DNA of 64,000 bases from Streptococcus pantholopis (GTDB lineage Bacteria; Bacillota; Bacilli; Lactobacillales; Streptococcaceae). Shown here piece after piece: positions 1,271-47,631 of the stretch. The notes under the pieces are model-generated. The model worked only from the letters and a program-made list of their open reading frames with translations. It did no database searches and was not told the origin of the DNA. Each line of letters opens with the position of its first letter. Position 1 is the stretch's first letter. The position numbers and the translations under genes were made by a program. The stretch is from contig NZ_CP014699.1 of NCBI RefSeq assembly GCF_001642085.1, positions 1,674,001 to 1,738,000 on the forward strand, given 5' to 3'.

Positions 1271-1744
1271 AAGATACAAAGCCCGTTTAAAGCTCACAGC
1301 AAAAATAGGAAAACTGACGAAGAAACTCCGGTTTCTAGGAAGTTTTATCTTTTTTGCAAAGAGCTTAGGCCGTGTTCAATTCATCAAGATACAAAGGCCG
1401 TTTAAAAATCCGTATGAAAATAGGGGATGGCAAGTGATGCCTAAGCATCACGATGACAGCCATCTTTTTCACTAGGATTTTAGGCCGTGTTCAATTACCA
1501 AGATACAAAGCCCGTTTAAAAATCCGTATGAAAATAGGGGATGGCAAGTGATGCTGGCATCACGATGACAGCCATCTTTTTCACTAGGATTTTAGGGCGT
1601 GTTCAGTTTCACCAAGATACAAAGCCCGTTAAAAAATCCGTATGAAAATAGGGGATGGCAAGTGATGCTGGCATCACGCTGGCAGTCATCTTTTTCACCA
1701 GGATTTTAGGCCGTGTTCAGTTTCAACAAGATACAAAGCTCATG
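1271..1744. repeat. Tandem array of ~114-bp intergenic hairpin repeats (4 units plus a stub)
   Basis: Units begin at 1271, 1386, 1500 and 1614, with a fifth start at 1728. Each opens with AAGATACAAAG then CCGTT and ends with GGCCGTGTTCA. Each unit is an imperfect palindrome. Units 2 and 3 have GATGGC paired with GCCATC, and inside that GTGATGC paired with GCATCAC. Unit 1 instead has the AAAACT/AGTTTT type of arm with an AGAAAC/GTTTCT inner stem. The left end of the array is 17 bases upstream of the blaI-like start codon, directly beside its Shine-Dalgarno. There is no open reading frame. I do not recognise the family by name. Confidence 0.85.
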
Positions 1745-1820
1745 TTTTACTTTCACCTTTATTCTACAATTGTCATACAAAAAAGTCAAACTATAAAAGC
1801 AGATAAGTAGACAAAGTTTT

Positions 1821-1870
1821 TTTATAAAAACAGCCGCAAAATCTGTATGATTTGCGACTGTTTTTATAAA
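1821..1870 (-). terminator. Rho-independent terminator of ilvBNC
   Basis: A long hairpin pairs TAAAAACAGCCGCAAA with a near-perfect complement ending TGTTTTTATA around a short loop. It lies about 55 bases past the ilvC stop, with T-rich flanks on the minus strand. Confidence 0.75.
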
Positions 1871-1924
1871 AGATTGGTTAATAGCTGTTTGAACCTCGTT
1901 CGTTTCAGACCGTTTATTTAAAAA

Positions 1925-2947
1925 TCAGTTATAGATAGCAAATGCATCATCATCGTCTTGACCGACAAAAGGCATAGCTTGACGCAGCTCTGCTCCGACT
2001 TTTTCAATCTCTAAATCAGCAGCTGCTTTGCGGTAAGCTTCCAGACGAGGACGGCCAGCCTTATAGTCCTCAACAAATTCTTGAGCAAATTTGCCAGACT
2101 GAATATCAGCAAGAACAGCCTTCATGTTTTCCTTAACTTGCTCGGTAATGACACGCGGTCCTGACACATAATCACCGAACTCAGCTGTATTGGAAATAGA
2201 CTGACGCATTTTTTTAAACCCGCCTTCATAAATTAAATCAACAATCAGCTTCATTTCATGCAGAACTTCAAAATAAGCCAATTCCGGAGCATAGCCTGCT
2301 TCTGTAAGAACTTCGAAGCCTGTTTCAATAAGAGCAGTTAAACCGCCACAGAGAACAGCCTGTTCGCCAAACAGGTCTTCTTCAGTCTCTTCTTTGAAGG
2401 TCGTCTCAAGCAGACCGACACGCGCCGCTCCGACGCCTTTAGCCCAATCCATTGCAATAGCTTTAGCATTGCCGGTAGCATCCTGATATACCGCATAGAG
2501 GGCAGGAACCCCGAATCCTTCTGTATAAGTCCGGCGGACCAAATGTCCGGGACCCTTGGGTGCACACATGAACACATCTACATCAGCAGGAGCTTTGATA
2601 TATTCAAACAAGATATTAAATCCATGGGCAAAGCCGAGTGCATTGCCAGCCTGCAGGTTTGGAGCAATTTCGAAAGCATAAAGGTCAGCTTGAATTTCAT
2701 CTGGTGCCAAAATCATAATCACATCAGCCAACTCGGTTGCCTGAGCCACCTCATAAACAGCAAAACCATCTTCTTTGGCTTTATCAAATGACTTACCGGA
2801 CCGAACACCAATAATAACATCATGACCGGAATCGCGTAAATTCTGCGCATGGGCATGACCTTGCGAACCATAACCGATTACTGCGATTTTCTTTCCTGTA
2901 AGAGCTGCTGTTTTAACATCTTTTTCATATTCCATTGTTACTGCCAT
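1925..2947 (-). CDS. ilvC: Ketol-acid reductoisomerase
   Basis: 340 residues, normal for a class I short-form enzyme. It converts acetolactate or acetohydroxybutyrate to the dihydroxy acids of valine, leucine and isoleucine synthesis, using NADPH and Mg2+. Visible features are the N-terminal Rossmann motif [15 protein letters not shown] around residue 24, the loop VRSGKS thought to decide NADPH use, and the C-terminal knotted domain with the metal-binding acidic segments [11 protein letters not shown] and [13 protein letters not shown]. It is the last gene of ilvB-ilvN-ilvC, 45 bases after ilvN, and is followed by a hairpin terminator. It should share the CodY-controlled promoter upstream of ilvB. 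Confidence 0.97.
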
Positions 2948-2992
2948 AATATCTCTTCTCTTTCTAAAATTATTTTTTATCTAAAAACTGAC

Positions 2993-45481: not shown

Positions 45482-45652
45482 TCACTTCCTGTTTCTGTCT
45501 GCCCAGTAAAGGTATAAAATCAAAACAGGAATAAAAATCAGAATCGGATACACAGAGCTGTAATGCCCTGATTGGATTTGCCCTATAACATAGCCAAAAC
45601 TGCCGATTAGATAAATTGATAACCATTTATTATTCTTCCAAAATCGCTTCAT
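45482..45652 (-). CDS. Small membrane protein of unknown function, overlapping the upstream gene
   Basis: I start at the ATG at 45652 (MKRFWKNNKWLSIYLIG), six bases after AAAGAGG. 56 residues with two hydrophobic segments (about 11-27 and 35-50), a basic N-terminus and a basic C-terminus (WADRNRK). It starts 23 bases inside the end of the nucleoside-phosphorylase gene, in another frame, so it is likely coupled. I do not recognise the family. It lies between that gene and cysS. Confidence 0.65.
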   Translation of the reverse strand: MKRFWKNNKWLSIYLIGSFGYVIGQIQSGHYSSVYPILIFIPVLILYLYWADRNRK

Positions 45653-46409
45653 TTTCAGCCTCTTTCGCAATAGCTAAAGCCAGATCAAATAAAGGCAGCC
45701 AATCAGGCAAGCTTTTGCGCCTTGCCTCCCAAGCACCATCAAGTCGGTTGACGTAATCAGCCGGATAGAAAAACTGACATACTTCCGCCTGACGAAATCT
45801 GGCCCAAGCCATGATAGCCGCCGCTTCCATATCTACGACTGCGGCACCAGAGGACATGCGGCGCTTAACCTTTTCCGGCGTTTCACGGTAAAAAGCATCT
45901 GTCGTCCAAGTCTTTGTTTTTATATAGCTGATACTATGTCTGTCAAAAACCTTTTCCATAATAGCCAACGACGCCTCATCATATCTGATTTCCTCGCTGG
46001 CAGGAGCATAGTGGTAACTTGTCCCTTCATCACGCAGAGCAGAAACCGGCAAAATAATGGTTTGACTTGTTATAGTTTTATCCAGAATACCGCAGGACCC
46101 CATAATGATAAACCTGCGGAAGCCCTTAGCTTTTAGTTCTTCTAAAACGCCAACTATCGCCGGTGCACCAACAGGAGCCAGGCAGACCGCGACCTTTTGT
46201 CTGCTTCTTTGGTAGATAAACCAGGACTGCTTGCCATTAAGGTTTTGCAAATAACCGCCAAGATGAACTTGTGGAAGCCCAGCCAGTTCTTCCACCATGT
46301 CACCGGCAAAAGAAAGAATAATGGTTTCACAGACCTCTCCGCCGCCTCGAACAGCTTTGTCTGTTGGTTCGATAATAGCAGGACTGTCATCAAATTCATT
46401 CAACAGCAT
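45630..46409 (-). CDS. Nucleoside phosphorylase (PNP/UDP type)
   Basis: 259 residues of the phosphorylase superfamily. Visible: IMGSCGILD for the phosphate/base loop, then VVDMEAAAIMAWARF with the ribose-binding Met-Glu pair, and a C-terminal segment ending in a disordered tail. It would split a nucleoside with phosphate. Substrate (uridine, purine or 5'-methylthioadenosine type) is not decided. It lies between cysE and the small membrane gene. Confidence 0.85.
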   Translation of the reverse strand: MLLNEFDDSPAIIEPTDKAVRGGGEVCETIILSFAGDMVEELAGLPQVHLGGYLQNLNGKQSWFIYQRSRQKVAVCLAPVGAPAIVGVLEELKAKGFRRFIIMGSCGILDKTITSQTIILPVSALRDEGTSYHYAPASEEIRYDEASLAIMEKVFDRHSISYIKTKTWTTDAFYRETPEKVKRRMSSGAAVVDMEAAAIMAWARFRQAEVCQFFYPADYVNRLDGAWEARRKSLPDWLPLFDLALAIAKEAENEAILEE

Positions 46410-46439
46410 ACTGCCTCCTATAACTTGCTGCCTCCACTA

Positions 46440-47063
46440 TCAAAGCTTAGAAGAGTGTAAGCTTGCATAACGCGCTTCTTCCAGTTTCGATGTGTAGTAT
46501 TTTGATTCCCGTTCTTCTTCCAACTGACTGATAGCTGCTTCATCTTTCTTACCATGGACACGGACGACCTTAGCCGGAACACCTACTACGGTGACATCAG
46601 GCGGAACATCCGCAACAACAACCGCTGCAGCACCAACCTTGGCATTCTCTCCAATTTCAATAGGTCCGATGACCTGAGAATGAGCCGAAACAAGAGCCCC
46701 CTTACGGACAGTGGGGTGACGCTTGCCCACATCCTTCCCGGTTCCCCCTAAGGTTACGCCGTGATAGAGCATAGCCCCTTTTTCTACAACAGCCGTCTCT
46801 CCAATCACCAAACCAGAACCGTGGTCAATAAAGACTCCTTCAGCAATTTCAGCGCCCGGATGAATTTCAATCTGCGTCCAAAATCGCCAAAACTGGCTAT
46901 GCATCCTCGCTAGCAAGCGAAAACCACGCACCCATAAAAAATGAGACAGCCGATGCGCAGCCAAAGCCTTTATCCCCGGATAAGTCAACAATACTTCAAG
47001 TGACGTGCGGGCAGCCGGATCATTTTCTTTTACAATAGCAATACTTTCTTTCCACCAGCCCAT
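46440..47063 (-). CDS. cysE: Serine O-acetyltransferase
   Basis: I use the ATG at 47063, after GAGGAG. 207 residues. An N-terminal helical region, then a left-handed beta-helix of hexapeptide repeats with DHGSGLVIGETAVV and GGTGKDVGKRHPT. It makes O-acetylserine, the precursor of cysteine. Its Shine-Dalgarno lies three bases from the end of a hairpin-repeat array, so its transcript probably carries that array as leader. Confidence 0.95.
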   Translation of the reverse strand: MGWWKESIAIVKENDPAARTSLEVLLTYPGIKALAAHRLSHFLWVRGFRLLARMHSQFWRFWTQIEIHPGAEIAEGVFIDHGSGLVIGETAVVEKGAMLYHGVTLGGTGKDVGKRHPTVRKGALVSAHSQVIGPIEIGENAKVGAAAVVVADVPPDVTVVGVPAKVVRVHGKKDEAAISQLEEERESKYYTSKLEEARYASLHSSKL

Positions 47064-47079
47064 AACAACTCCTCTCAAC

Positions 47080-47631
47080 AAGATACAAAGGGCGTTCAAG
47101 CTCACAGCAAAAATAGGAGACTGACCGCCGAGTCACTAAAGACTCTAGGGAAGGCTATCTTTTTTGCAAAGAGCTTAGCCCGTGTTCAGTTCAAACAAGA
47201 TACAAAGGCCGTTAAAAGAGCAAAGCAAAAATGACGGTAAGCCAGAAATCTTCGATTTCGTCGGCGCACCTCTGCCAGGACGACTAGAAGGCTGCGGGCG
47301 GCCGCTAGGACGATAAAGCCTTCAGACGGCTACGGCTGGTTAACTTGAAATCAATTCTAAACTTAGGTATGTCTTTTTTGCACAGCTCTTAGGCCGTGTT
47401 CAATTACACAAGATACAAAGGCCGTTAAAAGAGCAAAGCAAAAATAGGAGACTGGACGAAGAGCCATAGGTCTCTAGGACAGGCTGTCTTTTTTGCACAG
47501 CTCTTAGGCCGTGTTCAATTACACAAGATACAAAGGGCGTTTAAAGCTCACAGCAAAAACAGGGGACTGACTGACGAATCGCCAGATTCTAAGTCAGAAC
47601 ATCTTTTCTTCGCAGCGTTTAACCTTATTTT
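47080..47631. repeat. Tandem hairpin-repeat array (four units, one enlarged)
   Basis: Units begin at 47080, 47198, 47410 and 47525, all with AAGATACAAAGG(G/C)CGTT. Units 1, 3 and 4 are of the compact AAAATAGGAGACTG type, about 115 bases. Unit 2 is 212 bases and carries the second interior (GGTAAGCCAGAAATC-TTCGATTTCGTCGG) plus an extra GC-rich stem, GGCTGCGGGCGGCCGC. Unit 4 loses the standard right end. The array ends two bases inside the stop of the SseB-like gene on its right. Confidence 0.85.

Follow-up and report, generated by a model that had tools for sequence, protein, structure and literature searches.

Arrays of modular hairpin elements, each about 110 nt long with the ends AAGATACAAAGSCC and AATTGAACNCGSCC, lie directly beside the Shine-Dalgarno (SD) sequences of genes in a 64-kb stretch of the Streptococcus pantholopis genome, a single contig of 2,241,302 bp (the stretch is hereafter the window). 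These elements resemble miniature inverted-repeat transposable elements (MITEs), and they probably enter translation-initiation regions one way round, leave the SD and the start codon usable as a pair, and have been amplified in this lineage. The CysE relatives of this genome place it in Streptococcus. Positions, orientation, offsets, sites shared or turned over between relatives, one clean pair of empty and filled sites, and covariation between the arms of the stem were all directly seen. Two arrangements occur, termed here type I (the arrays of the window, 5' of the SD) and type II (elements between the SD and the start codon, found elsewhere in the genus).

Docking of Type I Arrays at Ribosome-Binding Sites

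In array orientation a unit runs from an A motif (AAGATACAAAGSCCGTT) to a B motif (GGSCGTGTTCAATT), and the A end is the one next to the gene. The arrays before the blaI/CopY-like gene, rpoE, and cysE (Table 1) share one orientation relative to the gene with the A end near the SD, as a first-pass annotation of the window had described; the distance of 17–19 bases to the start codon given there needs slight adjustment, the measured values being 17 nt (blaI-like), 18 nt (rpoE, to a TTG start at 16009, with the A end adjoining the SD AAAGGAG), and 16 nt (cysE, ahead of the ATG at 47063). The copy near 8273 indeed lies on the opposite strand and abuts a terminator, its A end being at the T-tract behind a tRNA gene.

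The A motif AAGATAC... has 257 + 244 = 501 matches in the window genome at up to two mismatches, and the reversed control has 0. Placement was tabulated over 864 kb, made up of the window and 40 stretches of 20 kb at even spacing, in which 796 genes were delimited by our own simple caller rather than by a published one. Sixty-two runs begin with A, of which five were dropped as chance matches (four inside called genes, one by its flank), leaving 57; another 13 runs that begin with the B motif were excluded from the count. For 44 of these 57 arrays, a gene that points away from the A end has its start codon 8–28 nt from that end, against 3.84% expected for random intergenic positions (log10 P -50.1), and in 35 of the 44 the A end is 6–8 nt from the GGAG core. 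The far end of the run, taken at its last motif, has a start codon within 75 nt in 0 of 53. To judge by eye from the flanks, the gene caller overlooked an SD beside two further arrays; of the remaining eleven, three directly follow a stop codon, four lie at T-tracts, and four were left unclassified.

The same rule holds in the nearest relative by RpoE (G017, 94%; hereafter the sister), in which 42 of 56 runs over 605 kb obey it (three dropped; null 3.43%, log10 P -49.0); this set is not random, 13 of its 33 stretches having been picked for synteny with the window-genome sample and one more placed at rpoE. Chance placement is ruled out by these figures, and the earlier suspicion that independent insertions would hardly share one offset by accident is borne out by genome-wide copies that prefer one distance and one strand in both genomes.

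Distribution and Insertion History

A scan of 284 genomes of the genus, allowing up to one mismatch, found the motif in 202, mostly in low numbers (456 in G000, 396 in G017, 103 in G009, 78 in G001, 59 in G086, 42 in G221, 23 in G273, and 13 in G028). The arrays of G009 and G001 are more diverse, the SD rule is weaker there, and several A ends lie directly after stop codons. In low-copy genomes, inspected by eye and not formally counted, many lone copies adjoin a start or stop codon, an SD, or in one case a tRNA gene, and others do not. A copy between two genes read as rpsJ and rplC, about 70 nt upstream of the latter, recurs with few differences in three species of the mitis group, S. pneumoniae, S. 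gordonii, and S. taonis (L263, L272, and L280, about 1390–1625); the S10 operon may have taken this copy over as a conserved element. In S. massiliensis (L268, about 1274, minus strand) the first bases of an element seem to provide the stop codon of the preceding gene (GAA-TAA, with the frame read by eye).

Comparison of 168 orthologous starts in the two sisters gives arrays in both at 13, in G017 only at 8, in the window genome only at 1 (a poor call), and in neither at 146; a single paralogue cluster supplies three of the 13 shared sites and three of the 8 found only in G017. The rpoE array is common to both, with differing units. The L133_2 site lacks an array in the window genome, and in G017 three units separate the SD from an intact promoter-side leader. 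The far flank being intact, insertion there was direct, and the idea that spacer DNA was eroded up to the SD is not needed at this site. An apparent target duplication of 2–3 bp accompanies the insertion, and other flanks do not agree on a fixed length. Small paralogues in tandem, found in L133 (about 283–286 kb of G000) and in L221 of G017, form a natural series of filled and empty sites, several members having an array or a single unit at the same offset and others none.

Type II Elements between the Shine-Dalgarno Sequence and the Start Codon

At dnaJ the element lies between the SD and the ATG in 27 of 30 fetched loci (all except L310, L311, and L313), with the A end 2–6 nt from the ATG by eye; these 30 are the best-scoring of 57 genomes matching a 700-nt query, and the share is biased upward because the query itself holds the element of L269. 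Four of six more dnaJ loci have it as well, one of the four, L353, being identical there to L304 and perhaps from the same genome. The dnaJ site is element-free in the window genome and in its sister; that of the window reads AAAGGATATAAAG followed by ATG, with the SD seven bases from the ATG.

Nine matches to a strict pattern (AGAAAGGA and then TTGAACNCG, with at most 8 nt between them) came from 7 of 16 genomes, all nine of type II, with none in the window genome or its sister. A looser pattern matches 230 of 284 genomes, an unknown part of these being tRNA genes; 30 of its loci were examined and the 15 with only tRNA matches were set aside. Over both patterns, in all 25 non-tRNA matches (two places occurring twice under two handles) the A end is followed within 0–5 nt by an ATG with an open frame of at least 60 codons. 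Since the SD was written into both patterns, its presence is by construction; the position of the A end at the ATG is not. Species with type II copies include S. pneumoniae, S. suis, and S. agalactiae, and one genome, G033, carries both types. By their N-termini the genes concerned are dnaJ, dnaK, parC, alr, pheT, uvrA, thiI, purL, and speE, together with a GNAT gene, a methyltransferase, and one resembling acoC. At uvrA of S. suis (L278) the SD stands between two units (A end, TAGAAAGGAA, B end), so that one of them precedes and the other follows it.

In 22 distinct type II leaders the median distance from SD to AUG is 113 nt along the sequence and 11 nt through the predicted fold, at most 16 nt in 21 of the 22; these medians include L345, a tRNA artefact. 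On the predicted structures it is about an even call whether mobile hairpins throughout the genus home to ribosome-binding sites and themselves bridge the SD to the AUG, in which case many streptococcal housekeeping genes would use such split sites. The start sites of genes like dnaJ, parC, and pheT could be misjudged, the SD being some 110 nt away.

Bridging may instead play no part, with the element cut from the mRNA or with transcription beginning at the A end and yielding leaderless messages. The A end lying 0–5 nt from the ATG would suit such an arrangement, as would the finding that 70 of 768 operons of S. pneumoniae D39 start transcription on the first coding base in the data available from PMC6212727. 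An SD only a few bases from the B end speaks against it, as does the SD seven bases from the ATG in the empty dnaJ site of the window; the former argument is weakened in that the SD word was built into both patterns and the dnaJ query also contained that region. Messages without bridging are on balance quite improbable.

Unit Architecture and the Question of Targeting

The A-to-B spacing is 94–98 nt in 76 of 104 steps, longer modules bring it to about 150, 194, or 242 nt, and 18–20 nt separate a B motif from the following A. For 128 distinct simple units of both genomes, the 18 pairs present in the consensus folds of both strands comprise 2180 Watson-Crick, 16 G-U, 27 A-C, and 68 other combinations, with 13 gaps; several paired columns exchange G-C for C-G or A-U, so that the arms change together. 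Single-strand fold counts are biased to the strand folded (103 vs 29; 21 vs 191) and for this reason were not used to compare G-U with A-C. In 114 of the 128 units it is the strand antisense to the gene that folds more stably (means -36.1 and -32.2; shuffled -21.1 and -20.5). Against dinucleotide shuffles the leader of S. pneumoniae dnaJ scores z -2.70, that of rpoE -2.15, and that of cysE -1.50. As in MITEs, the units are short, numerous, and without apparent coding role (coding potential was not separately scored). The ends AAGATACAAAGSCC and AATTGAACACGSCC are only imperfectly alike, and the arms pair and covary.

The mechanism that would best fit these features involves mobility, co-transcription, bridging, and docking by targeting together with selection against breakage. 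Elements would integrate in one orientation at translation-initiation regions. Type I elements would land directly 5' of the SD, keep the SD-AUG pair intact downstream, and then multiply in tandem in the window genome and its sister; type II elements would land between the SD and the start codon, where their fold would bring the SD and the AUG back to working distance. The attraction might lie in target recognition, in selection among random insertions, or in both. Recognition gains from the narrowness of the offset, from the absence of a broad spread of upstream positions, and from insertion at L133_2 having been direct.

AGGAG carries an array at 44 of 311 called starts and at 1 of 172 places in other intergenic DNA (Fisher 3.3e-8; 55 words within or close to arrays and 19 that may be SDs were left out of the count), and this single exception precedes an ATG and is itself a missed SD. 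For AAGGAG the figures are 29 of 179 at SDs and 1 of 52 elsewhere (P 0.004). The short word AGGAG alone is insufficient as a target, since its non-SD copies almost never carry arrays, and its poor prediction suggests something beyond AGGAG; a longer target word would be compatible with the data.

These counts bear on another view, in which the element is nothing but a selfish MITE without a role in translation; its transposase would favour polypyrimidine tracts or a particular word in the DNA, for example AAGGAG, and survivors would be seen at SDs because genic insertions are lost. An asymmetric flank would account for the fixed orientation and offset, the T-tract sites (window 8410 and others) are pyrimidine-rich on the array strand too, stems nearly without G-U suit a hairpin at the DNA level, insertion at L133_2 took place without erosion, and the longest candidate words do not differ significantly between SDs and other places. 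It fares less well with the near absence of arrays at non-SD AGGAG, with stop-codon sites that lack the word, and with type II copies on the other side of the SD. A purely selfish element is possible but rather unlikely.

Transcription and a Possible Role in the Leader

A consensus scan found three promoter-like sites in the rpoE region (shuffle mean 1.3), one in the blaI-like region (shuffle mean 1.7), and none in the cysE region; none was found inside the three arrays towards the gene. Since shuffled sequences yield promoter-like sites at about this rate, some support remains for rpoE alone. There the site lies upstream of the array and a similar one is found in the array-less L153, so that the array should be transcribed as a leader. 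To judge from these sequences, the rpoE array would be co-transcribed as part of the 5' leader, and the blaI-like array perhaps also lies in one. Thus the earlier proposal of a multi-hairpin 5' leader holds up for rpoE and perhaps for blaI, and finds no such site to lean on at cysE. The companion proposal, that the array gives the gene its promoter, could draw on the fixed distance of the A end; it does not survive the lack of promoter-like sites within the arrays towards the gene and the presence of such sites upstream of two of the three, and is very improbable indeed.

A third proposal, that arrays tune translation or mRNA stability, may still hold, but the lack of a G-U excess and the better antisense fold give it no support. 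For 44 leaders the predicted accessibility of the SD is 0.345 with the native array, 0.471 with it inverted, 0.223 with it shuffled, 0.505 with no array, and 0.284 with the array of another gene; the natural orientation is therefore not the one that exposes the SD most. Native arrays do not differ in this from those of another gene (24 of 44 leaders, P 0.17). Arrays could nevertheless have been exapted as leader regulators, kept since hairpins upstream of the SD tune translation or protect the mRNA. The 13 orthologous sites common to both sisters, the lower predicted accessibility in native orientation than with an inverted array or none, and the little-changed rpsJ-rplC copy in three mitis-group species may be read in this way. 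The genes are unrelated, however, docking extends to stop codons and terminators, the antisense strand folds better, and the native array does no differently from that of another gene; regulation as the reason for their retention is accordingly improbable.

Considerations against Directed Docking

Several observations weigh against insertion directed at initiation regions with the SD-AUG pair kept usable. Roughly one fifth of the sites are something other than an SD (a stop codon, a T-tract, or in a few cases unclassified); the spread of offsets to the SD core (sd 2.07) is only slightly below that to the start codon (2.67); and the contrast between SDs and other places is not significant for AAAGGAG, AAGGAGG, or TAAGGAG (P 0.11, 0.27, and 0.33). 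Covariation does not favour the mRNA strand, G-U pairs showing no excess over A-C (16 vs 27), and the gene-sense fold of type II is the lower one in only 7 of 22. Selection acting on the leader RNA itself is not indicated by stems that nearly lack G-U and show no excess on the gene strand. With shuffled type II inserts the path shrinks as well (median 16.5 nt), most single cases are not significant, and 16 of the 22 predicted folds pair some bases of the SD, mostly with the A end. There is just one clean empty site, at which the length of the duplication is uncertain, and no transposase partner was recognised in 54 A-to-B intervals of 450–3200 bp, in which long open reading frames were looked over by eye and no hidden Markov models were used. 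Finally, an SD-like word stands at only 1 of 18 readable distal ends of type I arrays. On that count a relic SD at the far end was rejected, and type I may be of different origin from type II.

Relation to Known Repeats and Split Ribosome-Binding Sites

No named family with this layout was known to the first-pass annotation, and the searches made here gave none. In Rfam no family covers an element (the window was searched at the gathering threshold; six loci were searched at E up to 0.5, with matches lying outside the elements, and the rpoE array at E up to 2), and neither the sequence words nor the docking layout were found in the open-access literature, searched mostly at title and abstract level, with no streptococcal full-text match by title. 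The boxA module seems to differ from the present elements. In the available part of PMC3049150, the BOX elements of S. pneumoniae are modular (boxA-boxB-boxC), hairpin-forming, intergenic repeats of 67–637 bp with many copies and a variable number of units, whose distance to the nearest gene decays gradually and which are overrepresented between convergent genes. The present family is likewise modular, hairpin-forming, and multicopy, whereas no docking at the SD is described for BOX in those sections of PMC3049150. RUP and SPRITE of S. pneumoniae are also short interspersed repeats with inverted ends or a terminator-like structure (PMC3049150, as available), but are unlike the present elements in length and make-up.

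The likeliest earlier sighting is among the BOX-type repeats or RepSU1 of S. suis, described as modular with boxA-boxC or boxE-boxF (PMC3049150, as available). The present family occurs in the S. suis loci L278, L279, L319, L320, and L322, and some of its members may be among the BOX-type repeats of that species; the comparison is by description only, the available sections of PMC3049150 printing no sequences, and RepSU1 was named in that paper alone among the open-access literature searched.

For type II the closest precedent is provided by genes 38 and 25 of phage T4, in which RNA structure reduces the SD-AUG spacing from 22 to 5 and from 27 to 11 nt (PMC3014915, as available). Both have structure between the SD and the AUG, type II going from 113 to 11 nt by prediction. 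The T4 case concerns a short hairpin in single genes and was shown by experiment, whereas type II is a dispersed repeat family at many unrelated genes, with bridging by prediction. The trait of a split ribosome-binding site, a distant SD with a hairpin between, is thus present at type II loci by predicted structure, and the window arrays lie 5' of the SD.

For the pneumococcal repeats, enrichment is reported at places where regulation suffers the least disturbance (PMC3049150, as available); the present family mostly touches the SD in two genomes. It opens to test both how a noncoding element finds initiation regions and how long a structured SD-AUG insert ribosomes can span.

Features of the Window

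Table 1. Hairpin arrays and associated features, in window coordinates
Feature	Position	Strand	Remarks and basis
Array, four hairpin units and a truncated A end	1271..1744	+	In front of the blaI/CopY-like gene; direct repeats, motif positions
blaI/CopY-like gene	870-1253	minus	ATG at 1253; 17 nt between array A end and ATG
Promoter-like site TTGACT-17-TAGAAT, 10/12	1761..1789	-	Upstream of the blaI-like array; consensus match only
Array, two full units and a truncated third, rpoE leader (putative)	16028..16360	+	Motif positions, comparison with relatives
Promoter-like site of rpoE, TTGACG-17-TAAAAT, 10/12	16488..16516	-	Upstream of the array; similar sequence in array-less L153
Array before cysE, four units including one long-module unit	47080..47631	+	Motif positions
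Single diverged unit	8269..8410	-	A end (8410) abuts terminator T-tract behind tRNA gene 8452-8524
dnaJ ribosome-binding site, element-free	23806..23818	-	AAAGGATATAAAG, then ATG at 23805; empty-site reference for type II

Two features of the window lie outside the hairpin family. A two-copy repeat at 50874-50939 and 63936-64000, about 13 kb apart, consists of GGCTGGGACAAAAGTCCTGCCTCG followed by AGATATATGCG..GACGCAGTGG or nearly so; by eye it is terminator-like and bears no relation to the family. The leader of ribosomal protein L13 is matched by Rfam at 40317-40398.

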